Positions 944-27,309 of a DNA stretch of 30,582 nucleotides are shown here, piece by piece. The DNA is from a virus: positions 1 through 30,582 of IMG/VR virus record IMGVR_UViG_3300017970_000007; one strand, given 5' to 3'. Position 1 is the stretch's first letter. Each line of letters opens with the position of its first letter. The notes under the pieces are model-generated. The model saw only the letters and a program-made list of their open reading frames with translations, was not told the origin of the DNA and ran no database searches. Both the position numbers and the translations under genes were made by a program.

Positions 944-1227
944 AGCTCAGCAAGGCCGAGAGGGCGCACCTCGAGCGTCTGTTGGTGCACACCTTCAACG
1001 GCAAGAGGATCGTGTCCAGTAACGTCACGACCAACGCCACGCAGACCCGCCACCACGTGCTCTGCCAGCTCGAGAGAAAGGGCGCCGTCACGTTCGAGGA
1101 CGACGCGGGGCCGCTCTCGCAGGCCTTCGGCGTGCGCTTCTGGCACGTGAGGCCCACGGACGCCGGCCTCAGGCTCTTGGAGGAGACCCCGCAAACCGAC
1201 GGTTTGCGGGGTTCGCTGCGCTCATGA
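940..1227 (+). CDS. Small winged-helix-like protein with repeat-encoded C-terminus
   Basis: 95 residues, GTG start overlapping the upstream stop. The pattern KLSKAERAHLERLL, HHVLCQLERKGAV, then FWHVRPTDAGLRLLEE resembles a winged-helix DNA-binding domain: helices, a recognition helix with L-x-R-K-G, and a wing ending in LT-x-x-G. A protein at 8938-9222 has the same pattern. The last 12 residues (PQTDGLRGSLRS) are encoded by a dispersed palindromic repeat, whose tail supplies the stop codon and the ATG of the next gene. The family-level call is an inference from pattern; the DNA target is unknown. Confidence 0.65.
   Translation: MKLSKAERAHLERLLVHTFNGKRIVSSNVTTNATQTRHHVLCQLERKGAVTFEDDAGPLSQAFGVRFWHVRPTDAGLRLLEETPQTDGLRGSLRS
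1187..1227 (+). repeat. Dispersed palindromic repeat, short type, tail to the right
   Basis: CCCCGCAAACC (1187-1197), loop GAC, GGTTTGCGGGG (1201-1211), a perfect 11-bp stem, then the tail TTCGCTGCGCTCATGA (1212-1227). The tail holds the TGA of the upstream gene and the ATG (1224) of the downstream gene. This is the best-preserved copy and serves as reference for the family. Confidence 0.9.
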
Positions 1228-6896: not shown

Positions 6897-6925
6897 TTGA
6901 CCTGTTGGAAACCTCTGGCCATAAT
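6897..6925 (+). promoter_or_regulatory. Sigma70-like promoter of the helicase gene
   Basis: TTGACC (6897-6902) and CATAAT (6920-6925) are separated by exactly 17 bases; each hexamer differs from consensus at one position. The predicted start point, seven bases after the -10, is position 6932, which is the A of an in-frame ATG. The transcript could therefore be leaderless. It is the strongest promoter candidate in the window. Confidence 0.7.
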
Positions 6926-6931
6926 AGACCC

Positions 6932-8941
6932 ATGATCGCGACTGCGCAGTCCTCCTTCCAAGCGAGACCGATGATCATCACCGCCAAGTACGCTTCTGCC
7001 TGCAAAGTCTGCCAGAAGCAGGTCCTGCCGGGCGACCGCGTGGAGTGGGTTCGTGGTGACAAGCACGTCTCCCACGTGCAGTGCACCGAGGAAGGTCAAA
7101 AGCTCGTAGCCGCCGTCGAAGCGAGCAAGGCGCCAGTTCCGACTGCCAGCGGCGTGGCTATCCCGTGCCCCGAGGAGCGGTCGTACCTGCCTTTTCAGAT
7201 CGCCGGGGTGCAGCACGCGCTGACCCTGCCGGAGGGCGTGCTCATCGCCGACCAGCAAGGGTTAGGCAAGAGTATAGAGACCTGCGCCTTCATCAACGCT
7301 TCTCCCGACATCCGCAAGATCCTCATCGTGTGCCCGGCCTCCGCGCGCATCAACTGGGAGAGAGAGTGTAACAAGTGGCTGGTCAAGCGCGCCTGCCAGC
7401 GCTTCGCGCTCGATCCGGTGACTGGCCGCGTCTGGGCCGACGTGGCCCTAGACCAGGTCCCCGAGGTCACGCAGTGGCCGCTCGTGCACGGCGACGTCGT
7501 CATCGTGTCCTTTGACTTGGTTGGCAAGCTGCTCGAGGTCCTGCCGGGCGCCTCTTGGGACCTCATCGTCATCGACGAGGTGCATCTGGTCAAGAACCCG
7601 AAAACCGCGAGGCACAAGAACGTCTCGTCCGCCAAAAAGCGCGCGGCAGAGACCAAGGTACTCGCCCTGACCGGCACTCCCATCCCGAACAAGACCGTCG
7701 AGCTCTTCCCCATCCTGCAGCTCGTCGCGCCGCTCGCCTGGGACCCGGCCGGGCGAGCGATGCGGAAGGAAAACGGCAAGAAGGTCTACTTTGCGGCAGG
7801 TCCTGGCGAGGGCGCGGGGTTCTTCCCGTTCGTCAAGAGGTACTCTAACGCGCACAAGGAAGAGCGCGGCAAAAAGTCCTTCTGGGTCTGGGACGGGGCC
7901 TCGAACCTGGACGAGCTCAACGAGAAGCTGCGCTCGACGTGCATGGTCCGGCGCCTCAAGAAGGACGTCCTCAAGGAGCTGCCGCCTAAGCGCCGGAGCA
8001 TCGTATGCTTTCCCCAGGACGGGGCCGTGGACGAGGTGACTGGCGAGGCGCGGGGCCTGTCTGAGGTGCTCAAGGCCGCGACCCTGAAGGAGGCGCTCGC
8101 GGCCCTGGAATCCCGTAAGGTGAGCTTCGAGGGTTACTCGAGTGCGCGCGTGGGAGCCGCGCTCGCTAAAGTCCAGCTCGTCGTCGAGCATGTCAGAAAC
8201 TCGCTCGAGAGCGGGAGCGAGAAGGTCATCGTCTTCGCTCATCACAAGGAGGTCGTCTCTGCGCTCGAGAGGGAGTTTTTGGACATGGGCGTCGTCACGG
8301 TCGACGGCGAGACGCCCAATACCGGTGACGGCAGAGGGACGCGGACCTGGGCCGTCGACCAGTTCCAGGATAATCCAGAAGTGCGCGTCTTCGTCGGCAC
8401 CATCGGCGCGGCCGGCGTCGCGCTCACGCTCACCGCGAGCGACCACGTCGTCTTTGCCGAGCTCCCACTTCGATTCATCGACCTGGAGCAAGCTGAAGAC
8501 AGAACGCACCGGATCGGACAGCACGGCAGCGTCTCGGTCGACATCCTCGTCTACGACGGCAGCGTGGACGCTCATATCGCGCGCCTGCTCGTAGAGAAGC
8601 AGGACGTCGCCGAGATGGCGCTCGACAAGGAGACGATCGTCTCGATAGAGGGCCGCATAGACGCGTCCGCCGCGCCCTCGTACAAGGAAGCACGAGAAAA
8701 GGCGTACAAGGACGCAGGGCTCACGAAAGAGGAGTGCAAGGAGCTACTCTCGAAGATGCAGTTCTTGGCCGGCATGTGCGACGGCGCTCAGCTTCTCGAC
8801 GGTCACGGTTTCAACAAGATCGACGCGAACATCGGCCACGCGCTCGCTGACTGCCGCGTGCTGTCGCCCAAGCAGGCCCTCTGCGCGCGAAAGTTGGCCG
8901 TCAAGTACAGAAGGCAGCTAGAGGGTAGGACATGGCAATGA
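6932..8941 (+). CDS. SNF2/SMARCAL1-like DNA helicase-translocase with N-terminal zinc motif
   Basis: 669 residues from ATG 6932; ATG 6971 is the alternative start. An N-terminal CKVC (24-27) with HVSHVQC (45-51) suggests a zinc knuckle. The helicase core shows YLPFQIAGVQHAL (Q-like motif, ~85-97), Walker A DQQGLGKS (107-114), DEVH (215-218) as motif II, and LTGTPIPN (III). The second lobe has VIVFAHHKEVV, then GTIGAAGVALTLTASD (V), and QAEDRTHRIGQ (VI, about residue 520). The HRIGQ ending is typical of SNF2 ATPases, closest to SMARCAL1-type annealing helicases. It probably remodels forks or protein-DNA complexes during replication. It is preceded by its own promoter. Confidence 0.93.
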   Translation: MIATAQSSFQARPMIITAKYASACKVCQKQVLPGDRVEWVRGDKHVSHVQCTEEGQKLVAAVEASKAPVPTASGVAIPCPEERSYLPFQIAGVQHALTLPEGVLIADQQGLGKSIETCAFINASPDIRKILIVCPASARINWERECNKWLVKRACQRFALDPVTGRVWADVALDQVPEVTQWPLVHGDVVIVSFDLVGKLLEVLPGASWDLIVIDEVHLVKNPKTARHKNVSSAKKRAAETKVLALTGTPIPNKTVELFPILQLVAPLAWDPAGRAMRKENGKKVYFAAGPGEGAGFFPFVKRYSNAHKEERGKKSFWVWDGASNLDELNEKLRSTCMVRRLKKDVLKELPPKRRSIVCFPQDGAVDEVTGEARGLSEVLKAATLKEALAALESRKVSFEGYSSARVGAALAKVQLVVEHVRNSLESGSEKVIVFAHHKEVVSALEREFLDMGVVTVDGETPNTGDGRGTRTWAVDQFQDNPEVRVFVGTIGAAGVALTLTASDHVVFAELPLRFIDLEQAEDRTHRIGQHGSVSVDILVYDGSVDAHIARLLVEKQDVAEMALDKETIVSIEGRIDASAAPSYKEAREKAYKDAGLTKEECKELLSKMQFLAGMCDGAQLLDGHGFNKIDANIGHALADCRVLSPKQALCARKLAVKYRRQLEGRTWQ

Positions 8942-12492: not shown

Positions 12493-12620
12493 GCTACTAC
12501 TTGAGCGTCTGCTTCGTTCCTCTTACCCCGCAAACCTCCCGGTTTGCGTGGGTTCGCTCCGCTCATGATGCGCGTCGCGGACGCCAGGCGCGCCTACGAG
12601 CGTTTGAGAGCAGAAGGTAG
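12489..12620 (+). CDS. Mini-ORF reading through a palindromic repeat
   Basis: 43 residues from an ATG in an ATGA overlap with the previous gene. It starts MSYYLSVCFVPL and then reads the repeat (TPQTSRFAWVRSAHD) and an Arg-rich end. Whether it is an original gene cut by the repeat or repeat-made is unclear. A second frame starting at the repeat's own ATG (12565, 21 residues, ends 12630) overlaps it and would couple to the next gene instead. Confidence 0.4.
   Translation: MSYYLSVCFVPLTPQTSRFAWVRSAHDARRGRQARLRAFESRR
12526..12568 (+). repeat. Dispersed palindromic repeat, short type, tail to the right
   Basis: CCCCGCAAACC, loop TCC, CGGTTTGCGTGGG, then TTCGCTCCGCTCATGA. The stem has a GCGTGG variant also present at 19656. 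The tail ATGA leads into a small frame starting at 12565. Confidence 0.85.
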
Positions 12621-12629
12621 GGCCGGCTG

Positions 12630-12857
12630 ATGGGATTCTTGGGCAGAAAATACAGCAGTGACGACGGTGACTCGGGGCGTGCCTTCTGGAGCGTGTCGTG
12701 CAAGAGCGACTCGCGCTTTGACGGCAGCGGCTACGCCTATACCGTCATCTCCGCGGCCCTCTCGGCCGAGGACCACATCCAGCGCAGGATCAAGGAGCTC
12801 GGCCTGCGGGACGACGAGGTCCCGGAGGACATCGAGTACGGTGGAGGAAAACCGTGA
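12630..12857 (+). CDS. Hypothetical protein
   Basis: 75 residues from ATG at 12630, overlapping the TGA of the small frame at 12565-12630. It begins MGFLGRKYSSDDGDSGRAFW and has YAYTVISAALSAEDHIQRRI. Its stop (TGA, 12855-12857) is the first base triplet of a palindromic repeat. Family not recognised. Confidence 0.6.
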   Translation: MGFLGRKYSSDDGDSGRAFWSVSCKSDSRFDGSGYAYTVISAALSAEDHIQRRIKELGLRDDEVPEDIEYGGGKP

Positions 12858-12904
12858 GCGCAGCGAATCCCCGCAAACGAAGCCGAAGGCGAGGTTTGCG
12901 GGAT
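12855..12904 (-). repeat. Dispersed palindromic repeat, long type, tail to the left
   Basis: The unit starts at the stop codon of the upstream gene: TGAGCGCAGCGAATCCCC, then GCAAAC, an inner hairpin GCC-GAA-GGC with flanking GAG, GTTTGCGGGAT. The outer stem is the family's, with a larger structured loop. It fills most of the 61-base gap. Confidence 0.88.
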
Positions 12905-12918
12905 AGGGAAGAGCGAAG

Positions 12919-13488
12919 ATGAAGAAGATAGTTTACATCGCACATTGTCTCGGCGACGGCCCCGATCGCGCCGCCAACTGCGCGAGAGCCAGCAAGTGGG
13001 TAGCCTGGGCGGCAGACCAAGGCGTCGCCCCCGTCTGTACCTGGATCGTACTCGCAGGTCAGTGGAGTGAGCAGAGGCGCGAGGAGGGATTAGCCATCGA
13101 CTGCGCGCTCATCGGGAGGTGCGACGAGGTGTGGCTCTGCGGGCCGCGCGTCTCGCCCGGCATGAACGTCGAGGCTAGTCACGCGAAGAAGGTGGGCGTC
13201 CCCGTTTACGTCCTAGTGGATCCCTCGTACGTCGACGGACCGCCCGCTCGCTACCCCACGTTCAGGCAGCTTATGGCTGAACGTCTCCCGATCTCGAGCG
13301 CCGTCGTTACTCACATGAGGGCTATGGCGGCGAGTCACGGGTTCTCCTACGAGGAGTTCCTGGAACTGAAAGCCGACCGGGTCGCCGAGCTCGAGTATTT
13401 CAAACCGACGTCGCGGGTCGTAACCATCGCGGAACTGGGACTGAATGCGAAGAGCGGACAAGATCCACTGCAGGGAGATCCGAAATGA
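12919..13488 (+). CDS. DUF4406/nucleoside 2-deoxyribosyltransferase-like protein
   Basis: 189 residues. KKIVYIAHCLGDGPDRAANC at the N-terminus and ALIGRCDEVWLCGPRVSPGM then NVEASHAKKVGVPVYVL (about residues 65-100) follow the Rossmann-like core of this superfamily, in which the strand I-x-x-A-D/E-V-W/V is followed by G-x-E. Here the Glu in NVEASHA would be the counterpart of the catalytic Glu. The C-terminal ~85 residues are helical and not recognised. It may act in nucleotide turnover with the proteins at 2-289 and 17298-17669. Confidence 0.7.
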   Translation: MKKIVYIAHCLGDGPDRAANCARASKWVAWAADQGVAPVCTWIVLAGQWSEQRREEGLAIDCALIGRCDEVWLCGPRVSPGMNVEASHAKKVGVPVYVLVDPSYVDGPPARYPTFRQLMAERLPISSAVVTHMRAMAASHGFSYEEFLELKADRVAELEYFKPTSRVVTIAELGLNAKSGQDPLQGDPK

Positions 13489-13565
13489 ACCTCAACAAAT
13501 CGAACAAGGGATCATCCCGCAAACCTCGCCTGCGGCTCCGTTTACGGGATTCGCTGCGCTCATGA
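13485..13565 (+). CDS. Mini-ORF through a palindromic repeat
   Basis: 26 residues from an ATG in an ATGA overlap with the previous gene. After MNLNKSNKGSS it is entirely repeat-encoded and basic (RKPRLRLRLRDSLRS). It stops at the TGA of the repeat tail, in overlap with the ATG of the next gene. It bridges two genes that would otherwise be uncoupled; a function of the peptide is not claimed. Confidence 0.4.
   Translation: MNLNKSNKGSSRKPRLRLRLRDSLRS
13515..13565 (+). repeat. Dispersed palindromic repeat, long type, tail to the right
   Basis: TCCCGCAAACCTCGCC, TGC, GGCTCCGTTTACGGG, then ATTCGCTGCGCTCATGA. It is close to the reverse complement of the copy at 12855, showing that the same unit occurs in both orientations. 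The tail provides ATG 13562. Confidence 0.88.
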
Positions 13566-13975
13566 AGACCTACAGCGAAACTGACATCTTCTCCGCCGAG
13601 GACCTGCGGGCTTTTCGCCTGGCGACCGCGATCGTCGCGCGCTTTCCGGACGAGGACGTCCACGGCAATGCCCTCAGGTGCCACGAGGTCGCCTCTGCCG
13701 TCGGGCGGCTCCTGAAGATCCCCGTGGAGCACGGAGTGTACGAGGTCGGGGCGCAGCACTCCTGGCTGCGCTTGCCCTCCGGCCACATCCTCGACGCCTA
13801 CGCGGTGGGACGCCTGCCGCCCGTCATCCTCGTCGCGGTCGTCGTCGCCGTGCCCGTCCGTTACGAGAAATTGTCGCCGGCCAGGTTATCGTTCAACACA
13901 AACGAAGAGACGGTGAGGTGGCTCGTCGAACGGACGTGCAATGACCGGGGTCTCTACGAGGAGGTCTCTGAGTGA
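13562..13975 (+). CDS. Possible transglutaminase/cysteine-peptidase-fold protein
   Basis: 137 residues; the ATG is in the repeat tail. NALRCHEVASAVGRLL (Cys40 at a helix start), EVGAQHSWLRL (His66) and GHILDAY (Asp78) give a Cys-His-Asp order and spacing typical of transglutaminase-like or NlpC-like folds. A hydrophobic strand PPVILVAVVVAVPV follows. This is a fold-level guess from residue order; no closer family is recognised. GTGA overlap with the next gene. Confidence 0.45.
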   Translation: MKTYSETDIFSAEDLRAFRLATAIVARFPDEDVHGNALRCHEVASAVGRLLKIPVEHGVYEVGAQHSWLRLPSGHILDAYAVGRLPPVILVAVVVAVPVRYEKLSPARLSFNTNEETVRWLVERTCNDRGLYEEVSE

Positions 13976-14190
13976 CCACCTGCGCCCACTGCGAGAACAA
14001 CGACACGCTGCCGTGCCCGTTCTGCGGCTGCTACAGCGCGTCGCACAGAGAGCGACCGAGCCTCTTCGAGGGAGAGACGTGCTACTTCATCCTGTGCAAG
14101 CAGTGCGAGGCTTGCGGGCCAGAGGGCGACACGCCTACGGAAGCGTGCATCCTGTGGAGCAAGCGCGGAGGGTATACGGAGACCGAATGA
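13972..14190 (+). CDS. Lar-like (restriction alleviation) zinc protein
   Basis: 72 residues from GTG. LPCPFCGCYSAS (13-24), ILCKQCEACGPEGDTPTEA, then CILWSKR matches the Lar pattern: PCPFCG, a central CxxC followed by GP, then E-A-x-x-x-W-x-x-R. E. coli Rac prophage Lar modulates type I restriction, but most phage members are only sequence-related. Anti-restriction activity here is inferred from family. It overlaps the ParB-like gene by ATGA. Confidence 0.7.
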   Translation: MTTCAHCENNDTLPCPFCGCYSASHRERPSLFEGETCYFILCKQCEACGPEGDTPTEACILWSKRGGYTETE

Positions 14191-15209
14191 GCGAGTCGCC
14201 TCAAGTACCTCCGGGCACCGTCCTATCCCAGGCGAACAAGGCCAAGGGCGGTCCCGCGCCCAGTGAACGGGAGCAGTTCATCCGCCTCTCCGACATCGCG
14301 GCCGACTGGGACTGGAACGCGCGCACGCCCGCCTCGGTCGCGCAGGGTACCGAGAGCGATAGTGGCGGTGACCTCTCGGACCTCTGCGCTTCCTTACGCA
14401 AGACCGGGCAGCTCGCGGCCGTCGTGGTTAGGCCGAACGTGCATAGGAAAGGTCTCACGAAAGACAGGGCTAAAGGTACGGAAGTGTTTCCGCCGTACGA
14501 ACTATCCGCCGGCTTCCGGCGCTTCGCCGCAGTCAGGCTCTGCAACGAGGCCGCGAAGAAGAATGAGGTAGCCGTCAAGGATTTGCCCAACGGGACCATC
14601 CGCGCGGTCGTCCGGGACCTCGACGACCTTCAAGCGAAGCTGGTCAACGGACGCGAGAACGTCCGAAATCCCCTGGAGCCTCCAGAGTTGATGGCACATT
14701 TGCTATCCCTCGTCATGCCACCGTTCTCCATGAAGGAGACCGACGTCGCCGAGGACCAAGGTCTGAGTTTCTCGACGGTCCACAAGTACGTCACGGTCGG
14801 AAAAGCTATCTGTCTACCGGTGCTATCCCACTGGCGAAGCGGCGGCGACTTCGACGGCGTCAGCGTGCCGAAAAGGGCGTCGTTCGAGGAGATCGAGGAG
14901 GTCTCAAAGTACCCCACCGACAAGCAACCCGGCGCCTACAAGATCGTGCTCCTGTCGAAGGCGGAGCAGGCGGAGAAGAAGGACTGGTTCCTCTGGGCCG
15001 AGAAGAGCGCGCTTCGGGCCGGCAGGTACGTGGCGCGCCTGGTGAAGGAGGGCGTCGTGACGCGCACGAGCGTCCCGTGGGTCGACGCGCTCGACGCGAT
15101 CCTGCCCGTGCCGGCCAAGGCCAGGCGCAGGGCCAGGGAGGCTTTGGCGGCCAGGGTGGAAGAGGGTTTCGAGAAGGCGATGAGCCAGGATAGCGAAGAG
15201 GAGGATTGA
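14187..15209 (+). CDS. ParB-like nuclease/partition-domain protein
   Basis: 340 residues. FIRLSDI (31-37) and DLSDLCASLRKTGQLAAVVV (62-81) are the start of a ParB N-terminal domain. PPYELSAGFRRFAAVRL (102-118) is the G-x-R-R box, and NGRENVRNPLEPPELMAHLL the second box. ETDVAEDQGLSFSTVHKYVT is an HTH. The C-terminus is charged. No ParA is in the window. It may bind phage centromere-like sites, or act as a ParB/Srx-fold regulator or nuclease. Confidence 0.78.
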   Translation: MSESPQVPPGTVLSQANKAKGGPAPSEREQFIRLSDIAADWDWNARTPASVAQGTESDSGGDLSDLCASLRKTGQLAAVVVRPNVHRKGLTKDRAKGTEVFPPYELSAGFRRFAAVRLCNEAAKKNEVAVKDLPNGTIRAVVRDLDDLQAKLVNGRENVRNPLEPPELMAHLLSLVMPPFSMKETDVAEDQGLSFSTVHKYVTVGKAICLPVLSHWRSGGDFDGVSVPKRASFEEIEEVSKYPTDKQPGAYKIVLLSKAEQAEKKDWFLWAEKSALRAGRYVARLVKEGVVTRTSVPWVDALDAILPVPAKARRRAREALAARVEEGFEKAMSQDSEEED

Positions 15210-16031: not shown

Positions 16032-16663
16032 AGTCCGTCATGATGACCTTGCTATTCATCGTCTCATGCTCCGGTGCGCCGTTCGGTACTGCCGAGATGG
16101 TGGCGACTGACCCGCCAGAGACCGTGAGGCCGACCGTCGTCGCGGTCACGCCGGACGACCCGGATGCGCAGGGCGGCGCAGCGGCGCAGGAAGCGAGTGC
16201 GCCGGCTACTATCGAAGCCAGCGCGCCGGCCGTCGTCGAGGCGAGTGCGCCGGCCGTCGTCGAGGCAGGCGCCCCTGCCGAAGCGAGTCCAGCCGCCGAG
16301 GCGAACGCCCCGGCTCCCCTATGCCAGCCGTACACGCTGGCCGGTCCCTTCATCGTGCTGTCACTAGCCCCCACTTCTTTAGACTTCGGCGACGTGCCGG
16401 TCGGCCAGAGCTCCGTGCTCACGGCGTCGCTCACGAACTCCGGCAGCTGCGCGGGCCCCACCCAGGCCGCGGGCGGCGCGCCAGAAAACCCCGCCTTCGT
16501 CGCCCTGACGAGCTGCGGCGGCGGGCGCGTGCTCGCTCCGGGACAAAGCTGCTCCATCGACTACACCTTCACCCCGGTGTCACCAGGAGCGCAGGCCAGC
16601 GTCTCAGCCTGGACCTTCGCGGGCGAGCCGTTCGCCATCACCTTGAGGGGCGTCGGCAAATGA
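16028..16663 (+). CDS. Predicted lipoprotein with Ala/Pro-rich spacer and ASPM/SPD-2/Hydin-like domain
   Basis: 211 residues. MKSVMMTLLFIVSC is a lipoprotein signal peptide with lipobox IVSC, Cys14 being the lipidated residue. Residues ~48-97 are a low-complexity spacer of EASAPA-type repeats. Residues ~109-211 form a single Ig-like domain (LAPTSLDFGDVPVGQ, VLAPGQSCSIDYTFTPVSPG) of the choice-of-anchor D/ASH type common in predatory and complex bacteria. It would be displayed on the envelope, which is unusual in a replication region; a superinfection-exclusion or other host-conversion role is possible but inferred. Confidence 0.78.
   Translation: MKSVMMTLLFIVSCSGAPFGTAEMVATDPPETVRPTVVAVTPDDPDAQGGAAAQEASAPATIEASAPAVVEASAPAVVEAGAPAEASPAAEANAPAPLCQPYTLAGPFIVLSLAPTSLDFGDVPVGQSSVLTASLTNSGSCAGPTQAAGGAPENPAFVALTSCGGGRVLAPGQSCSIDYTFTPVSPGAQASVSAWTFAGEPFAITLRGVGK
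16187..16312 (+). repeat. Imperfect tandem repeat encoding the Ala/Pro spacer
   Basis: Repeated units of ~24 bases; the clearest pair is 16223-16246 and 16247-16270, each starting GCGCCGGCCGTCGTCGAGGC. They encode EASAPAVV-like modules in the lipoprotein and are likely to vary in number by slippage. Confidence 0.8.
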
Positions 16664-19422: not shown

Positions 19423-19695
19423 ATGCCGCTATCTCAAGGCGATCCGGCCCTCGACTACGACGGCAGCTGGGGCGACGCCTCGGCAGGGTGGCCGTCGATC
19501 GAGTTCGCGTCGGAAGAAGAAGCGGAGCGCGCCTACGTCACCTGTTGGCAGGGCGCGAAGGTGCCGTACGGGTCGTACGTCCTGGTCGGCAGCGTGCTCC
19601 GGCTCGAGACAGAAGAATACAAGGAGCTCGTCGTGAAGTTCTTCTTCGGAGTCGTCCCGCAAACTAAAGTTTGCGTGGATTCGCTGCGCTCATGA
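19423..19695 (+). CDS. Hypothetical protein with repeat-encoded C-terminus
   Basis: 90 residues from ATG 19423, five bases after the upstream stop. An acidic body (ALDYDGSWGDASAGWPSIEF) is followed by FASEEEAERAYVTCWQGAKV and strands. The last residues VPQTKVCVDSLRS come from the palindromic repeat, which also supplies the stop. Family not recognised. Confidence 0.6.
   Translation: MPLSQGDPALDYDGSWGDASAGWPSIEFASEEEAERAYVTCWQGAKVPYGSYVLVGSVLRLETEEYKELVVKFFFGVVPQTKVCVDSLRS
19656..19695 (+). repeat. Dispersed palindromic repeat, short type, tail to the right
   Basis: CCCGCAAACT, loop AA, AGTTTGCGTGG, then ATTCGCTGCGCTCATGA. It shares the inner T-A pair with the 2553 copy. The tail contains the TGA of the upstream gene (19693-19695) and ATG 19692. 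Confidence 0.88.
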
Positions 19696-19859
19696 CAAGC
19701 TCAGAGATGATCGAGGAGTTCCTCGAACTCTTCATCGCGCCGGGCAATCGCGGCGCGGCGCGGTCGGCCTTGCGCAAGATGATCGCGCTCGCTGAGGCGC
19801 GCGCGAGGACCGACCAGGTGAAGGACGACCTGGCTAGACTGCGTGCGGGTCGCCCGTGA
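19692..19859 (+). CDS. Hypothetical small helical protein starting in a repeat
   Basis: 55 residues from the ATG of the repeat tail. It is fully helical: SSEMIEEFLELFIAPGN, AARSALRKMIALAEARART. Its stop overlaps the GTG of the cupin-like gene (GTGA). Family not recognised. Confidence 0.55.
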   Translation: MTSSEMIEEFLELFIAPGNRGAARSALRKMIALAEARARTDQVKDDLARLRAGRP

Positions 19860-20449
19860 TCATAGAACGCGAAGAAGTGCGCTCGATCCTCGAGCGCGCG
19901 AGAGACACCGGCGGCGCCCCGGACGGTAAGACCTGCTCGCTGCAGGGCATGGGCATGTTTCGCTTGTACCTCTCGCGCGAGGTGCGCCTGCACGTCTGGG
20001 ACAGCCGGTTCATCGTGGAGAAGGTGTCGACCATCCACACCCACCCGTGGGACTTCTTGAGCCACGTCCTCTCCGGAGTCATCCTCGACCGGAGGTTTTG
20101 CAAGTTTGACCAGGCGACATCCGAGACCAGTAACTACCTGGAACAAGAGATCGTCTGCGGCCCGGGCGGAGGAGCGTCAGGCAGGCCTACCCCAGTCCGG
20201 CTCAAGTGGGACGGAGACGCCGTCACAGTGAGGGGCTACGAGTACATCCACTCGCACTCAGACATCCACGAGACCGTGGCGAAGTGCGGCACCGTGACGC
20301 TCGTCGAGCGAAAGTTCAAGAAGGACACCGAGCACGCGCTCGTGTACTTCCGCAAGGACAGGACGTGGGTGTCCGCCGAACCACGGCCCGCTCGCGAGGA
20401 CGAGGTGAAATCGATGGCGCGGATGGCGCTCGACCGGTGGGAGGCCTGA
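19856..20449 (+). CDS. Cupin-like protein
   Basis: 197 residues from GTG in a GTGA overlap. FRLYLSREVRLHVWD then STIHTHPWDFLSHVLSGVIL (His61, His63, His70) is the metal-binding cupin motif 1 pattern, and GYEYIHSHSDIHETV plus CGTVTLVERK could provide motif 2. A beta-barrel of strands is consistent. Members of this type occur in phages and bacteria without an assigned reaction. The stop (TGA, 20447-20449) starts a composite palindromic element. Confidence 0.7.
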   Translation: MIIEREEVRSILERARDTGGAPDGKTCSLQGMGMFRLYLSREVRLHVWDSRFIVEKVSTIHTHPWDFLSHVLSGVILDRRFCKFDQATSETSNYLEQEIVCGPGGGASGRPTPVRLKWDGDAVTVRGYEYIHSHSDIHETVAKCGTVTLVERKFKKDTEHALVYFRKDRTWVSAEPRPAREDEVKSMARMALDRWEA

Positions 20450-20589
20450 GCGTAGCGAATCCCCGCAAACGGAGCCGAAGGCGAGGTTTGCGGGATAGTG
20501 AATAGGAGAATGTGATGACTGATCCTGAGAACTTCCATACCCCGCAAACCTTCGGTTTACGGGGTTTCGCTCGCTGCGCTCGCTCATGA
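20447..20589. repeat. Composite palindromic element, copy A
   Basis: 143 bases made of a left-tailed long unit (20447-20496), a 43-base spacer with AATAGGAGAA as Shine-Dalgarno and a mini-ORF start, and a right-tailed short unit (20540-20589). The outer ends, TGAGCGTAGCGAA and its counterpart ...GCTCATGA, are inverted. The spacer is nearly identical to that of copy B (22501-22645). The left end is the stop codon of the cupin gene; the right end is the start of the next gene. Confidence 0.9.
20515..20589 (+). CDS. Mini-ORF inside composite element A
   Basis: 24 residues from ATG 20515 with AGGAG upstream. It starts MTDPENFHTPQTFGLRGF and ends ARCARS at the TGA of the repeat tail, overlapping the ATG of the next gene (ATGA). 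The same N-terminal peptide is encoded by element B. It probably works as a leader that restores translation across the repeat. Confidence 0.45.
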   Translation: MTDPENFHTPQTFGLRGFARCARS

Positions 20590-21194
20590 AGATCTTCTGG
20601 AAAGAGAACCCCTTGGCGACGCTCATCGAGCTCGACGCGCACGACCGGCGAGTCCTGCGCCTGCTCGTCGAGATTGAAGACCTGAAGGAGCGAATCGGCA
20701 TAGCCCACCTCGACCTCGACCCGAAGGACAGGGAGTGGCGAGACAAGACCATCGGGCCGCGGTCGCTCGAGGCTGCGGTCGCGTCAGCACTCACGCAGCT
20801 CGAGATCCCCGACGACGTAGAAAAGAAGTACGCCGAGCGGGCCGAGAATTACATCGGGGCGCTGCTCGACGCGCACGCGGGCGACTGCACGTGCCAGCCA
20901 TGCAGTTGCATCAAGTGCCACGCTGAGTCGCTCTTGGGTGTCAACACGACCAAAGGCCTCGGCAAACACGAGGGAAGCTACGTCGACGACGCGTTTGCGC
21001 CGCGCTCTGGCGGTAGTGTGCCGACGCTGCGCGAGGCCATCGAGAGCCTGAGAGACTACAGGCCCGAGAAGGGCGCCGGGTGGGAGAAGTGCTCGCAAGA
21101 GGAGTTCGACGCGCACGTCCCGAGGTGGACCAAGGAGGCCAAGGGCGCCCACGACTGGCTCGTGGCCTACGAGAAGGAGCACTTCTCCAAGTGA
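20586..21194 (+). CDS. Hypothetical protein with Cys-rich centre
   Basis: 202 residues from the ATG in the element A tail. A helical N-terminal part (LIELDAHDRRVLRLLVEIED) is followed by CTCQPCSCIKCHAESLLG (residues ~100-117), a dense Cys cluster. A further part reads VPTLREAIESLRDYRPEK. It may be a metal-binding protein; no family recognised. GTGA overlap with the next gene. Confidence 0.6.
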   Translation: MKIFWKENPLATLIELDAHDRRVLRLLVEIEDLKERIGIAHLDLDPKDREWRDKTIGPRSLEAAVASALTQLEIPDDVEKKYAERAENYIGALLDAHAGDCTCQPCSCIKCHAESLLGVNTTKGLGKHEGSYVDDAFAPRSGGSVPTLREAIESLRDYRPEKGAGWEKCSQEEFDAHVPRWTKEAKGAHDWLVAYEKEHFSK

Positions 21195-21794: not shown

Positions 21795-22559
21795 ATGACC
21801 TCCTCCAAGCACTCCAAGGTCGATCGCGTGCACGCTCCGCAGAACCCGCGGCTCTGGGTCGACCTCTACCTCGACAAGGACTCGGGGTCATTCTTCGCTG
21901 ACGTCGGAAAAGAGCGCCTCACGGCCGACACCAAGAAGAAGGCCAAGGAGAAGATCCAGGCGCGCCTCTCAAAGCTCACGCAAGCCGCGTGGCGCGAAGT
22001 CATCGTCGTCCGCACAAGGAAGCGAAAGGAGAATGACCACCACAGCACGGAGAACGGCAAGCCCGTCTACTCGTGCTCCTGCTCCTTCACGTACATGCGC
22101 CGCGAGCGGTCCGTCAACCCCTTGAAGCCCAAGGAGACTATCGAGCGCGAGCACCAGGCTGACTTCGAGACCCGTGTCAGAGAGGAGCGAGAAAGAGCGG
22201 CGTCATGGAGAGGTTACGGCAAGAGCGGGAAAGAGGCCGCGGACGAGCGTGAGGCTGCGCTTCGCCAGGACAGAGAGAACCTGAAGGGGATCGACAGCCA
22301 GTGGTCGTCTTTTCGGGACGACGAAGTCGAGTACGAGATCCCGTATACGGAGCTTGCCTGGGAAGGCATCGGCCGCATCTCCATCGCCATGCAAGAAACG
22401 CAGAGGCGCCTCGACGACTTTGCCAAGAGCGCCACACCAAGCAAGCTCGCGATGCTCGCGGCGGGCGAGGTGCTCCGGTTTCTGCCGGGGCCGAATGCTG
22501 TGAGCGAAGCGAATCCCCGCGAACCCGCGCGTCAGCGGGGTTTGCGGGATGGTGAATAG
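21795..22559 (+). CDS. Hypothetical protein with repeat-encoded C-terminus
   Basis: 254 residues. The N-terminal part, WVDLYLDKDSGSFFADVGKE then LTADTKKKAKEKIQARL, is a small alpha/beta domain. The centre is charged and helical with a CSCSF motif and many Arg/Glu (ETRVREERERAASWRGYGKS), and LAMLAAGEVLRFLPG is near the end. The last ~19 residues (from VSEANPREPARQRGL) come from the left unit of composite element B read in a frame that escapes its TGA. No family recognised. Confidence 0.6.
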   Translation: MTSSKHSKVDRVHAPQNPRLWVDLYLDKDSGSFFADVGKERLTADTKKKAKEKIQARLSKLTQAAWREVIVVRTRKRKENDHHSTENGKPVYSCSCSFTYMRRERSVNPLKPKETIEREHQADFETRVREERERAASWRGYGKSGKEAADEREAALRQDRENLKGIDSQWSSFRDDEVEYEIPYTELAWEGIGRISIAMQETQRRLDDFAKSATPSKLAMLAAGEVLRFLPGPNAVSEANPREPARQRGLRDGE

Positions 22560-22645
22560 GAGAATACGGATGACTGAGTCTAAGAACTTCCATACCCCGC
22601 AAACCTCCGGTTTACGGGGTTTCGCTCGCTACCGCTCGCTCATGA
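22501..22645. repeat. Composite palindromic element, copy B
   Basis: 145 bases with the same plan as copy A: a left-tailed long unit (22501-22550; inner stem CCCGC/GCGGG), a spacer with AATAGGAGAA and a mini-ORF start, then a right-tailed unit (22595-22645). The tail reads TCGCTACCGCTCGCTCATGA instead of copy A's TCGCTGCGCTCGCTCATGA, and this length change puts the mini-ORF in frame with the next gene. Confidence 0.9.
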
Positions 22646-23097
22646 AGCGAATGACTGCAGCGCAGGCCACCGAGTTCTTCGTGGTCTACTTCGAGAAGGA
22701 CGAATTGCCGAACAGCCCGACCGACGAAGAGCTCCGAGCCCTGGCGAGGCAGGCCGCCTCAGCCCTGCGCCTGCTCGCTCCTGACATCACGGTGGACAAA
22801 ACCGACGCGAAGCGCGGCTTCTCGGAGGCCCTGCGAAGGCGCGGAGTCCTGCACCCGGAACTCGGGGTGGAAGACCACAGCGAGCTCGCCGCGCACTACG
22901 CGAGGGCGTGCGGGAGCGACAGGCAGCTCGCGCTCTTGATGGCCCTGTCCGCCGGCTTCTCCTTCGAGCGCGCCGTCTCGGCGTTCGGCGACGAGGGCCT
23001 TCGGATCGCCTTCGCCGCCACGGCTGAGGGCTACATCGACCGCGGAGTCCTGACGGACAAGGGCCGGGCGCGCATCGCGGCGGCGAGCGAGGCGTGA
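22570..23097 (+). CDS. Hypothetical helical protein fused to the element B mini-ORF
   Basis: 175 residues if started at ATG 22570 (AGGAG upstream), or 151 from ATG 22642 in the repeat tail, which is the likely ancestral start. The body is helical: MTAAQATEFFVVYFEKDELP, TDEELRALARQAASALRLLA, DRQLALLMALSAGFSFERAV. It ends at a TGA that begins another repeat. Family not recognised. Confidence 0.6.
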   Translation: MTESKNFHTPQTSGLRGFARYRSLMKRMTAAQATEFFVVYFEKDELPNSPTDEELRALARQAASALRLLAPDITVDKTDAKRGFSEALRRRGVLHPELGVEDHSELAAHYARACGSDRQLALLMALSAGFSFERAVSAFGDEGLRIAFAATAEGYIDRGVLTDKGRARIAAASEA

Positions 23098-23144
23098 GCG
23101 CAGCGAATCCCGGGCAGCGGTACCGCAGGCGAGGTTTGCAGAAT
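23095..23144 (-). repeat. Dispersed palindromic repeat, long type, diverged
   Basis: TGAGCGCAGCGAATCCCG, then GGCAGCGG, TACC, GCAGGCGAGGTTTGC. It starts at the upstream stop codon. The interior differs from other long copies but is very like the copy inside the DNA polymerase at 23566, 470 bases away. Confidence 0.75.
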
Positions 23145-23160
23145 AGGGAGACTTTCGGCA

Positions 23161-23448
23161 ATGAAGTGGAACATAGGTGACGACGTCCCAAGACTCGGCG
23201 AGCGACTCTATCGCCGCGACACGGGCGAGAGCGCAGAGGTCACGCACGTCTGCGAGGCTGGCAGAATCCCACCCATGTCTCTCTGCGCCCCGTCATACGA
23301 CGGCGACGTCGTCATGCAGTACGGCCCAGGACGCTACAGTGTCTGTTCAGGAGGCGCATACTTCTGGCAGCGGTGGAAGAGGCCAGGCAGCGATCACCTG
23401 CTTTATCTGTCGTTTGCCACCGGTTGCAATCCTTCGCTGCGCTCATGA
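23161..23448 (+). CDS. Hypothetical protein ending in a degenerate repeat
   Basis: 95 residues from ATG 23161. It is beta-rich: DDVPRLGERLYRRDTGESAE, VMQYGPGRYSVCSGGAYFWQ. The final FATGCNPSLRS is encoded by a degenerate repeat whose tail supplies the stop, in ATGA overlap with the polymerase start. Family not recognised. Confidence 0.6.
   Translation: MKWNIGDDVPRLGERLYRRDTGESAEVTHVCEAGRIPPMSLCAPSYDGDVVMQYGPGRYSVCSGGAYFWQRWKRPGSDHLLYLSFATGCNPSLRS
23411..23448 (+). repeat. Degenerate palindromic repeat, tail intact, at the polymerase start
   Basis: The stem has decayed (CGTTTGCCACCGGTTGCAA), but the tail CCTTCGCTGCGCTCATGA (23431-23448) is intact and contains ATG 23445 of the DNA polymerase. 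This suggests the tail is kept because it carries the start site. Confidence 0.7.
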
Positions 23449-25802
23449 GAGGCTACCTCGCAGAGGAGCTGCCGCGCGAGCTCGCGCCGCGCGCGAGCAA
23501 GAAGAGGAAGAAGAAGGACTGGCTGTCCTACCGCTTCGTCGGCATCGACGGCGAGGGGATGGATGTGAGCGAGCGAATCCCGGACAGCGGTGACGACAGG
23601 CGAGGTTTGCGGGACGGGTTCGAGAGTCCGGTTCGGAGACACCTCTACACCTACCTGTGTGCCACGGCCGAGGACGGCGAGGTCATCAGTGACTGCTATA
23701 GAGACACAGGCTTGACCCACGACGAGATCTGCAACGTGCTCCTGGCAGTACCCAGTGACTGCCTGTGCTTCGGCTACATGATCTCCTACGACATCACCAA
23801 GTGGATAGAAGCCCTGCCGGACGAGGACAAGTACCGCCTGCTGCGCCCTGACACGCGTCAGATCTACAGGTGCAAGGACTGCCACCGCACCTTCGCCGTG
23901 GGGCTGAAGTTCTGCCCGCACTGCCTCGGCCACGAGTTTCGCGAAGGCAACGACCCGATCAGGTGGAGCGGCCGCCAGTACGACTACTTCGCCGGGCCCT
24001 TCGAGGTCTGGGGAGACAGGGACCCCAATAACCGCAAGTGGCGCAGCCACACCAAGGTGTGGGACGTCATCCGGTTCTTCGGCACGTCCTTCGTGCAGGC
24101 CATCACCGACTGGAAGGTTGGCACTGCCGAGCAGCACGCGCGCATCGACGCGATGAAGAAGAAGCGCGGCTCCTTCGACGTCGAGAAGGAGGAAGACATC
24201 AAGGGGTACTGCCGGCAGGAGTGCGAGCTGCTCGCCCAGATGATGCGAAAGGTGGTGGAGGGCCACGTCGACGCCGGCTGGGAGCTTCGGGCCTTCTACG
24301 GGGCCGGCTCGACGGGCAAGGCCATGCTCACCGCGAACGGCGTCAAGGCCTACAAGGGGCCGAAGATCGGGTCGCTCGACCCCGCGCTCGCCATCGCCAT
24401 CATGAGCGCGTTCTTCGGCGGCAGGTTCGAGGACAGCCACGTAGGCGTCGTAAGACGTCCGATCTGGAGCAAGGACATCGCTAGCGCGTATCCGTACGCC
24501 ATGGTGCGCCTGCCGTGTCTCGCGTGCGGCAGCTGGCGGCGAATCGGCCCCGGCAAGTCGCTCCTGCGCGAAGTCGCCCAGGCGCCGCTCGCGTGCTGCC
24601 GGTTCACCGTCAGGAGCCTGCCGGAAAAAGAGCGAAGGCAGATGGCCTGGGCGCCGCTCCCTTTCCGCGACGAGTCGGGATCCATCGCGTACCCGCTCAA
24701 TTTCAGCGGCTGGGCGTGGAAGCCCGAGGCGATGCAGGCCCTCTTGGGCTGGCCAGATCTGGTCAAGATCGAGGAGGCGTGGGTCTATGACCAGGCCTGC
24801 GACCATAAGCCCTTCGAGTTCATGCCGGACGTCTACAGGCGCCGCGTTGCGATCGGAAAGGAGGGGCCAGGCCTAGTCCTGAAGCTCGGGGCGAACGCCG
24901 GTTACGGCGTCACGGCGCAGAGCATAGGCGACGACCCGCCTTTCCAGGAGTGGGTGTGGGCGGGCAACATCACATCGTCCTGCCGGGCGCAGGCCCTGGA
25001 GGTCTTCCGGTCGGCCAAGGACCCCTGGAGCATCCTCACCGTCGCGACCGACGGGATATGCGGGACCGAGGACTTCGCCGTCCCCATCCCCTTCGAGACC
25101 GGGACGCGCGGCTGCAGGGCGCCGCCGACCAAGGAGCATCCGGAGGGAGAGATCAAGCAACCGCTCGGCGGCTGGGAGAGCGAGGCGATACCCGAGGGGA
25201 TGTTCATCGCCAAGCCGGGGATGTACTGGCGCCTGGACCTCACGGACACGAAGAAGATGCGGGCCAGGGGCATAGGCAGAAAGGAGCTCTTCGATAGCAA
25301 GGACCGCGTGATCTCTGAATTTCTCAGGTGGGACAGGAAAGATTTCAAGTTCAAAGTCGTCGTGGAGAGCCGGAGATTTTTTGGAGCGAAGTCGACCATC
25401 TACGCCCGGTCTCGCTGCAACAAGTGCAACGTGAGCTGGCCCGGCACGCCCGAAAGACTGTGCCCCCGCTGCGGCTCTCTTGGTGTAGATTTTCGGGCGA
25501 TGCGCCAGACGCAAGTCACAGACGAGACGAGAAAAGACGAGGGGCGCGTCGACGTCTACGGGACCTGGGGGGTGAGGGCGATCGACATAAGGTTCGACCC
25601 GTTCCCCAAGCGCGAGCGCGAGGTCGGCAAGGGCGAGTGCTCGCGCCTCTTCGTGCGCGACGCGGACGGCAAGATGAGCTCTCCGTACAAGGGCGACAAG
25701 ACCCCGGAGGCGCTCGCTCTGATACCCGAGGCGGAGATGCTGGAGGAGCAGCCGGACTGCGGCGTCGACGTACTAGACATGGACGACCTCGGTGATGTCT
25801 GA
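23445..25802 (+). CDS. Family B DNA polymerase with in-frame repeat insertion and two zinc motifs
   Basis: 785 residues. Exo I is FVGIDGEG (31-38). Residues ~41-58 (VSERIPDSGDDRRGLRDG) are encoded by a palindromic repeat. Exo II is near CFGYMISYDITKW (108-120). A zinc motif CKDCHRTFAVGLKFCPHC lies at 143-160. Exo III is YCRQE (255-259), with Glu where Asp is usual. Motif A is DIASAYP (344-350), motif B KLGANAGYG (480-488), motif C ATDG (534-537) instead of DTDS, keeping the second Asp. GMYWRLD and GIGRKEL lie in the thumb, and a second zinc motif (CNKCNVSW...CPRC) is near 657-675. It is the likely replicative polymerase. The ATG is in the repeat tail. Confidence 0.93.
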   Translation: MRGYLAEELPRELAPRASKKRKKKDWLSYRFVGIDGEGMDVSERIPDSGDDRRGLRDGFESPVRRHLYTYLCATAEDGEVISDCYRDTGLTHDEICNVLLAVPSDCLCFGYMISYDITKWIEALPDEDKYRLLRPDTRQIYRCKDCHRTFAVGLKFCPHCLGHEFREGNDPIRWSGRQYDYFAGPFEVWGDRDPNNRKWRSHTKVWDVIRFFGTSFVQAITDWKVGTAEQHARIDAMKKKRGSFDVEKEEDIKGYCRQECELLAQMMRKVVEGHVDAGWELRAFYGAGSTGKAMLTANGVKAYKGPKIGSLDPALAIAIMSAFFGGRFEDSHVGVVRRPIWSKDIASAYPYAMVRLPCLACGSWRRIGPGKSLLREVAQAPLACCRFTVRSLPEKERRQMAWAPLPFRDESGSIAYPLNFSGWAWKPEAMQALLGWPDLVKIEEAWVYDQACDHKPFEFMPDVYRRRVAIGKEGPGLVLKLGANAGYGVTAQSIGDDPPFQEWVWAGNITSSCRAQALEVFRSAKDPWSILTVATDGICGTEDFAVPIPFETGTRGCRAPPTKEHPEGEIKQPLGGWESEAIPEGMFIAKPGMYWRLDLTDTKKMRARGIGRKELFDSKDRVISEFLRWDRKDFKFKVVVESRRFFGAKSTIYARSRCNKCNVSWPGTPERLCPRCGSLGVDFRAMRQTQVTDETRKDEGRVDVYGTWGVRAIDIRFDPFPKREREVGKGECSRLFVRDADGKMSSPYKGDKTPEALALIPEAEMLEEQPDCGVDVLDMDDLGDV
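23566..23614 (-). repeat. Palindromic repeat inserted in frame within the DNA polymerase gene
   Basis: TGAGCGAGCGAATCCCGG, ACAGCGGTGACGACAGGCG, AGGTTTGCGGGAC. It lacks an in-frame stop because the TGA is read out of frame. It adds ~18 residues just after Exo I, in a loop between two strands of the exonuclease sheet. It is nearly the same subtype as the copy at 23095. Confidence 0.85.
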
Positions 25803-26404: not shown

Positions 26405-26739
26405 CGACCAAGAAGCGCGACTCCTCGGATGCCCTGTACGCTCAAAGCGAGATGGGCAAGCTCAAGGCCGTCATCCGCCTGCTCGACGCGTTGCCAGGCC
26501 GCCACTCGGACTACGAGGCCCGCCAGCTCGCGGCGTTCCAGCGGATGCACGACGAGGTGGCGAGCGGCCAATTATCAAGGCTGTCCGAGAAGCAGCGCGC
26601 GTACCTCGACGGCGTCTGGGACAGGCTATCCAAGAGCGCGCAGACTATGGCTCAAAACACCAACAGCGAACAAGGCAAACGCGTCCTCACGCCCGCCGTG
26701 CTACGAAATTTACCCAAGAAGCCGCCCGGGAGAAGCTGA
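26401..26739 (+). CDS. Hypothetical helical protein with TTG start
   Basis: 112 residues from TTG 26401 in a TTGA overlap. KLKAVIRLLDALPGRHSDYE, AFQRMHDEVASGQLSRLSEK then QRAYLDGVWDRL resembles a short phage motif (LSEKQ-x-x-WL/YL-x-x-V-x-x-RL) of unknown role. It overlaps the next gene by TGATG. Confidence 0.6.
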   Translation: MTTKKRDSSDALYAQSEMGKLKAVIRLLDALPGRHSDYEARQLAAFQRMHDEVASGQLSRLSEKQRAYLDGVWDRLSKSAQTMAQNTNSEQGKRVLTPAVLRNLPKKPPGRS

Positions 26740-27239
26740 TGAGCCCAGACCAAGTCAAGGATCGCGTGGCGCAGGAGTCGGCTTCCCTGCACAACAGCCG
26801 CATCCCAGCGCCGACCACGATCACGGCGATCGAGGCCCGCGTGGAGGAGGAGGTCAAGACTGCGGGCGGGACGAGGGCGAGTAGCGCCATCGCGCTCGAC
26901 CCGCCCCAGCCCGACCAGACCAACGACTTCCGGGTCAAACCGCCGAAACCCTGCGAGGGGTGCGGCGGCCCCGCGCACGGGTCGGCCACGCAGGGCTACA
27001 ACTGCGTCCGTGACCGGATGAGGGAGGCGCGCGTGGCGCTAGGGCAGAAAGGGCCCTTCGCGTGCGACGGCTGCGGCAAGTCACATGCCCACTTCGACCA
27101 GGTGGTAGCGTGCATGCGCGGCGCGCTCAAGAGAGCGCGCGAGCGCGAGGGCATCGGGGTTAGTAGAGCCCAGTTCGAGGAGAACCGAAGAAGCTCGGAG
27201 CACTTCGAGCGCACGCGGGGGAAGGGCAAGGCGCTGTGA
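26739..27239 (+). CDS. Hypothetical protein with two zinc-ribbon-like motifs
   Basis: 166 residues from ATG 26739. PPKPCEGCGGPAHG then YNCVRDRM, and GPFACDGCGKSHAHFDQVVA then CM give two CxxC/H clusters. The N-terminal third is polar and possibly disordered. The TGA stop (27237-27239) starts a long repeat unit. May bind nucleic acid; family not recognised. Confidence 0.6.
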   Translation: MSPDQVKDRVAQESASLHNSRIPAPTTITAIEARVEEEVKTAGGTRASSAIALDPPQPDQTNDFRVKPPKPCEGCGGPAHGSATQGYNCVRDRMREARVALGQKGPFACDGCGKSHAHFDQVVACMRGALKRAREREGIGVSRAQFEENRRSSEHFERTRGKGKAL

Positions 27240-27288
27240 GCGTGAGCGAATCCCCGCGAACCCGCGCGCCAGCGGGGTTTGCGGGATA
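27237..27288 (-). repeat. Dispersed palindromic repeat, long type, tail to the left
   Basis: TGAGCGTGAGCGAATCCCC, then GCGAACCCGC, GCGCCA, GCGGGGTTTGCGGGAT, followed by AGTGAATAGTAG, which resembles the spacer of the composite elements. It is nearly identical to the left unit of element B, and looks like half of a composite element. Confidence 0.88.
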
Positions 27289-27309
27289 GTGAATAGTAGA
27301 GAGTGCAAA

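Follow-up and report, generated by a model that had tools for sequence, protein, structure and literature searches.

The question raised by this locus is how a short repeat that otherwise lies between genes came to stand in frame inside the exonuclease domain of a viral DNA polymerase. The window covers all 30,582 bp of a virus record that may itself be a fragment; its G+C content is about 64%, and no end repeats were found in it. Its source is an undescribed, phage-like virus. Nearly all plausible genes of the record are carried on the + strand, and its predicted products include a helicase (6905-8941), a nucleoside deoxyribosyltransferase-like protein (12919-13488) and a ParB-like protein (13941-15209). 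The gene of interest, polB (23445..25802, + strand), has its start ATG within the junction sequence CGCTCATGA and translates into 785 residues. The Exo I motif, the match to PHROG 11768 (E 4e-29) and the modeled fold, which VIA-align superimposes on phi29 DNA polymerase (Z 21.4, 494 residues, rmsd 4.0), all agree that the product is a family B DNA polymerase with a predicted phi29 fold.

Among the relatives found, the short viral contigs L016 and L017 are closest (45% identity in the helicase and 33% in the polymerase), together with L056, a portion of a 45-kb contig that was binned with an uncultured archaeon; the polymerase of L056 is 34% identical. The nearest polB homologues are just ~33-39% identical, and a search of 28 further genomes from the phylum of L056 gave no polB relatives. 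The polymerase also contains two zinc-ribbon-like stretches with CxxC pairs (residues 138-165 and 657-692), which give weak matches to HypA and transposase zinc domains and are absent from L016 and L017. Elsewhere in the window, a 24-bp tandem repeat in three overlapping copies lies within a coding stretch at 16190-16280.

Repeat finding, a pattern search and a profile agree on a family of about 16 copies in the window, in both orientations, the weak copies being uncertain. A unit is ~40-60 bp long and comprises a TGA stop, GCGNAGCG, a CCCGCAAAC...GTTTGCGGG hairpin and the start of the next gene, or the reverse complement of this arrangement ending in TCATGA. Forward units read TGAGCG-N-AGCGAATCCCCGCAAAC...GTTTGCGGGATAGGGA and end in GGGATAGGGA or GGGATAGTGAATAGGAG, the reverse units, which have the complementary sequence, finish with CGCTCATGA, and the termini TGAGCG/CGCTCA form an inverted repeat. 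Across all 12 units of the alignment, the polymerase copy included, 24 columns are invariant.

Canonical forward units are found on the + strand at 12855..12909, where the unit occupies a gene junction, at 20447..20501, where TGA ends the ORF 19856-20449, at 22501..22555, and at 27237..27292, where TGA ends the ORF 26739-27239. The unit at 23095..23149 (+ strand), which is the closest copy to that in the polymerase, provides the stop of the ORF 22549-23097 and has a degenerate hairpin. Reverse units occupy 1188..1227, with a terminal ATGA that is both the stop of the ORF 766-1227 and the start of the ORF 1224-1478, 12525..12565 (from the profile), 13514..13565, which starts the ORF ending at 13975, and 19655..19695, at the end of the ORF 19423-19695. 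The reverse unit at 20538..20589 brackets a 24-codon ORF with the forward unit at 20447, an arrangement that recurs at 22501-22645, where 22593..22645 is the reverse unit of the second pair. Finally, a degenerate reverse unit at 23422..23448, which matches the profile by its outer 13 positions only, contains a CTCATGA that combines the stop of the ORF 23161-23448 with the polB ATG. Read in frame, the forward unit at 22501 can also encode the C-terminal VSEANPREPARQRGLRDGE of the ORF 21795-22559 (254 aa), supplying its last ~19 residues, a possible second, C-terminal case of unit DNA serving as protein.

At four of the five forward junction units, the TGA terminates an ORF that is 75 aa or longer, compared with 70 of the 338 TGA triplets window-wide. 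In five of seven reverse units, the ATGA serves both as the start of an ORF with 50 aa or more and as the end of one with 24 aa or more, compared with 31 of 110 ATGA sites in the window; this count took the unit at 22642 at a wrong position, its ATG being in frame with the ORF 22549-23097. All four canonical forward copies fold well beyond the level of their shuffles (z -2.6 to -4.4), and reverse copies vary more (z -3.7, -2.2 and -0.7 for three copies folded on the + strand). Changes in the stem include G-U variants in the unit's own orientation and one compensatory UA to CG change, although the covariation support is weak, as 46 of 500 shuffles reach the score. The junction units may act as single-strand hairpins joining the stop and start of neighboring genes. 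A role as Rho-independent terminators was rejected, the junction hairpins not being among the terminator-like sites on the coding strand, and strict alternation of orientation, as in paired cassettes, was set aside after p ranged from 0.004 to 0.27 with the choice of weak units counted.

Family copies sit at gene borders, and the sole copy deep in a conserved domain is that of the polymerase. Its assignment to the family was made with an nhmmer profile built from the five other forward units of the window, the polymerase copy being held out. This profile matches 23566-23614 with 29.3 bits (E 2.2e-8), compared with a best match of 14.8 bits in 200 dinucleotide-shuffled whole windows, which bears out the repeat unit reported in the initial annotation. 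The affinity to the unit some 470 bases upstream, described there as nearly the same subtype, also stands: of 52 positions aligned with the 23095 copy, 471 bases upstream, the polymerase copy matches 46, and alignments with other forward units give 43-44 matches in 50-52 positions. Moreover, a variant left arm, CCCGG[G/A]CAGCGGT (degenerate), is found in these two copies only. The longest exact match of the polymerase copy elsewhere in the window is an 18-mer, CAGGCGAGGTTTGCGGGA, in the reverse unit at 13515. Since the right arm retains the canonical GTTTGCGGGA in the polymerase copy but has decayed to GTTTGCAGAAT in the 23095 copy, the latter in its present form is not the direct parent, and both copies probably descend from a common variant.

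In other respects, the polymerase copy departs from its family. No ORF is ended and no start is supplied there, and it shows no significant hairpin (z -0.2), the same being true of the 23095 copy (z +0.7). The term palindromic, which had been applied to the polymerase copy itself, is therefore a trait of the family and has to be withdrawn for this member.

The inserted segment, VSERIPDSGDDRRGLRDG, comprises 54 nt or 18 codons (23565..23618, + strand) and corresponds to residues 41-58; the repeat core was detected at 23566-23614, and the exact ends are inferred. As the initial annotation had it, these codons come directly after the Exo I strand FVGIDGEG (residues 31-38, 23535..23558, + strand) in an open 785-aa frame. 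DGEG is invariant across a 19-row alignment, and the stretch from DGEG to the next strand spans 6-13 residues in the 19 homologues and L056, compared with 29 in the polymerase of this record, so that residues ~41-58 are absent from the homologues. The 19 homologues with Exo I in frame are 18 from viral contigs plus DesireeRose, and the 12-residue loop of L056 was counted slightly differently. Toil as annotated begins after DGEG, and the annotated P19 protein is without the region, which is present in a longer Toil frame (L020). When V41-G58 is removed, what remains is MD joined to FESPVRRHL (residues 59-67, 23619..23645, + strand), a total of 11 residues within the homologue range.

At its start and at its end, the insert is read in the same frame as the other units that encode VSEANP...RGLRDGE; between these points, one -1 and one +1 difference offset each other. 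The -1 difference need not be a deletion made in the polymerase copy, because the same AGCGAGCGAA form of the left end recurs in the reverse unit at 20534. Third-position G+C is 0.93 for codons 1-40, 0.88 gene-wide and 0.78 for the insert, and the first of these values, set against the second, makes the part before the insert look coding. Internal translation initiation after the repeat was considered and rejected, given that no start with an ORF of at least 24 codons was found in the stretch checked and that codons 1-40 have coding-type third positions.

An AlphaFold2 model built from the 19 aligned sequences (mean pLDDT 72.9) predicts mostly confident strands at residues 30-41 and 65-75, the second of which the residual FESPVRRHL segment enters, while residues 44-61 fall below a pLDDT of 50. 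In this model, the turn that leads from the Exo I strand to the following strand is made longer by the insert. The low-confidence segment between confident strands agrees with the surface loop foreseen in the initial annotation, and the insert is probably a flexible surface loop, with which a low pLDDT is compatible but of which it is no proof.

Taken together, these observations make it likely that polB received an ectopic copy of a junction unit of the 23095 subtype, which stayed in frame and was tolerated as a surface loop. According to this model, the source would have been a nearby junction and the target the turn joining the first two strands of the exonuclease domain, with recombination or template switching during replication as the most likely route. 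The insert would have remained open and in frame and would be read as 18 residues, and it may be tolerated in vivo because it merely extends a flexible surface loop. Within the same genome, a ~155-bp stretch made up of a forward unit, the 24-codon ORF and a reverse unit is present in two copies, at 20441-20600 and 22495-22656, with identity in 136 of 168 aligned columns. This indicates at least one other copying of unit-bearing DNA, apart from the polymerase event. The small ORFs of this duplicated pair, of 24-25 codons, read MTDPENFHTPQTFGLRGFARCARS and MTESKNFHTPQTSGLRGFARYRS, and the second is fused in frame to the next gene.

The main rival is active transposition of a non-autonomous unit, for which the virus or host would provide in trans a single-strand transposase in the style of REP/RAYT or IS200/IS605, encoded outside the record. 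The presence of units in both orientations at many junctions, their terminal inverted repeat, the twofold occurrence of the pair with its enclosed ORF, and stem variants that are mostly G-U in the unit's own orientation with one compensatory change, as expected if one strand folds, would all suit such a process. However, no transposase, RAYT or recombinase was found by Pfam and PHROGs among 56 ORFs plus polB and the helicase (for PHROGs, among the matches listed, 25 of 29 families), in a record that is itself possibly incomplete, and this is why ectopic recombination or template switching is favored. Neither a target-site duplication nor a close empty-site relative was found, and the covariation is weak. 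In the light of these results, transposition is no more likely than recombination or template switching, and we consider it improbable. The earlier statement that the element is mobile is thus upheld insofar as a unit was copied into a gene and a pair was duplicated, but it finds no backing in an enzyme, a target-site duplication or a close empty-site relative.

The remaining explanations concern what the copy does or whether it is real. The polymerase copy may have been kept as a working DNA site for protein binding or processing, like a 14-bp palindrome in the L056 polB. The invariance of 24 columns, in the polymerase copy as well, would fit such a role, as would the L056 contig, where some of the ~38 dispersed palindromes lie inside ORFs, including polB. 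Yet the hairpin of the polymerase copy is lost, there is no stop or start at the site, and in L056 conserved codons were replaced by substitution and without insertion, which leaves this a rather remote prospect. It is very doubtful that the segment is an old loop lost in all homologues and unit-like by chance or shared composition; the homologues are all distant and differ in the length of their loops at this turn (6-13 residues), but a near full-length nucleotide match, an exact 18-mer and the lack of any shuffle close to it had already told against this idea. An assembly artefact joining polB to a repeat copy, conceivable in a single metagenomic contig with repeats, is just as doubtful, since an 18-nt longest exact match is too short for most assembly graphs to collapse and neither the frame nor the conserved strand on either side is disrupted. 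Least credible of all is that the insert is bypassed or spliced during expression and never becomes protein: 54 nt being a multiple of three, the reading frame alone cannot tell, but the frame is open, the predicted loop looks structurally harmless, and the hairpin on which bypass or splicing might depend is missing.

The unit appears confined to this record among the sequences searched. A DNA search with the full unit pattern found nothing in the viral contigs covered, the left half occurred in 20 viral contigs with one copy each, about the number expected by chance on a rough estimate, and none of these 20 had the right arm. CGAATCCCGGACAGCGG was present in three viral contigs, with no unit around it in any. 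No unit was found at 72 viral loci of helicase relatives, of which the new ones also had no polB relative; unit-bearing stretches had no blastn match in phages or plasmids, and the unit had no match in Rfam. Two other repeats came to light. The 45-kb virus-like contig CABMCB010000100.1 (L056, L061-L063), related to the window, carries ~38 copies of TATTCC[A/G]CGGAATA with at most two mismatches, a palindrome almost absent from the rest of the L056 MAG. Many copies lie 7-12 nt after stop codons and several inside ORFs, and in the L056 polB the palindrome codes for LFRGI at the conserved RFxGAK motif, by substitution and not insertion. In L017, a 65-nt repeat (1460-1524 and 1852-1916, 94% identical) ends in CACATGA and is possibly a junction repeat of another sequence.

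Rickettsia palindromic elements (RPEs), to which the initial annotation likened the insert, are dispersed hairpin repeats inserted in frame in conserved protein genes and read as protein (PMC2229807; PMC3733652). The outcome is alike, as an in-frame insertion in a conserved protein gene is seen here in one gene. However, RPEs are 105-146 bp long (PMC2229807) and occur in many genes of Rickettsia, whereas the viral insert is 49-54 bp and represents a single internal insertion. In addition, the normal setting of the viral unit is a stop/start junction, and the hairpin typical of RPEs is seen in the canonical forward copies but not in the inserted one. The viral unit therefore works like an RPE without belonging to that family, from which its length and the non-palindromic inserted copy separate it under the published description.

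In position and make-up, the viral family is nearer to the junction elements of phages. The ESAS/SAS repeats of cluster K mycobacteriophages have inverted arms and lie at the borders of non-structural genes, by start codons and sometimes with the stop of the preceding gene; the SAS has a conserved 13-bp core, GGGATAGGAGCCC, located 3-7 bp before start codons in nearly always one orientation, and the ESAS arms do not generally support RNA pairing (PMC3203893). The viral units are likewise inverted repeats beside gene starts, but they occur in both orientations, have a built-in TGA/TCATGA end and carry complementary, folding arms. The core GGGATAGGAGCCC is absent among them. PeSLs, another class of phage junction element, carry an early promoter. 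They are described as repeated intergenic stem-loop cassettes of T4-type phages that are thought to mediate gene shuffling (cited in PMC4503421), and they are invoked also for the archaeal virus HGTV-1 (cited in PMC3950731). The viral junction units similarly form stem-loops between genes, but promoter sites of the sigma-70-like type, to which the scan was directed, are not enriched in the window. To our knowledge, no PeSL lies inside a coding frame. Enterobacterial RU/ERIC elements are small mobile repeats of 103-168 bp read in frame in genes of bacterial chromosomes (PMC2759123). The viral unit resembles them as a small repeat in frame in a gene, and differs in being shorter and in its viral setting. 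REP/RAYT elements combine a GTAG or CGTC tag with a RAYT transposase. The viral unit alignment has no consistent tag of this kind, and no transposase family is seen in the scanned ORFs of the record.

The best-known examples of short dispersed repeats in frame within conserved genes come from Rickettsia and a small number of further bacteria, and no description of a junction unit in frame within a phage polymerase was found in searches of an open-access library. It is conceivable, though we hold this only tentatively and below even odds, that the units serve a new virus lineage as mobile linkers of gene junctions, each bringing a stop, a hairpin and a start, so that it could be inserted between overlapping genes with neither being broken, and that they sometimes land in genes as new protein loops, the unrelated palindrome of the related virus being similarly dispersed. 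Because the case consists of one event in one metagenomic record, its weight is moderate. It nevertheless joins two usually separate topics, the gene-junction repeats of phages and protein-coding palindromes, and a clear case in a viral replicative polymerase, with the source family in the same virus, would show that compact viral genomes gain protein sequence in the same way.
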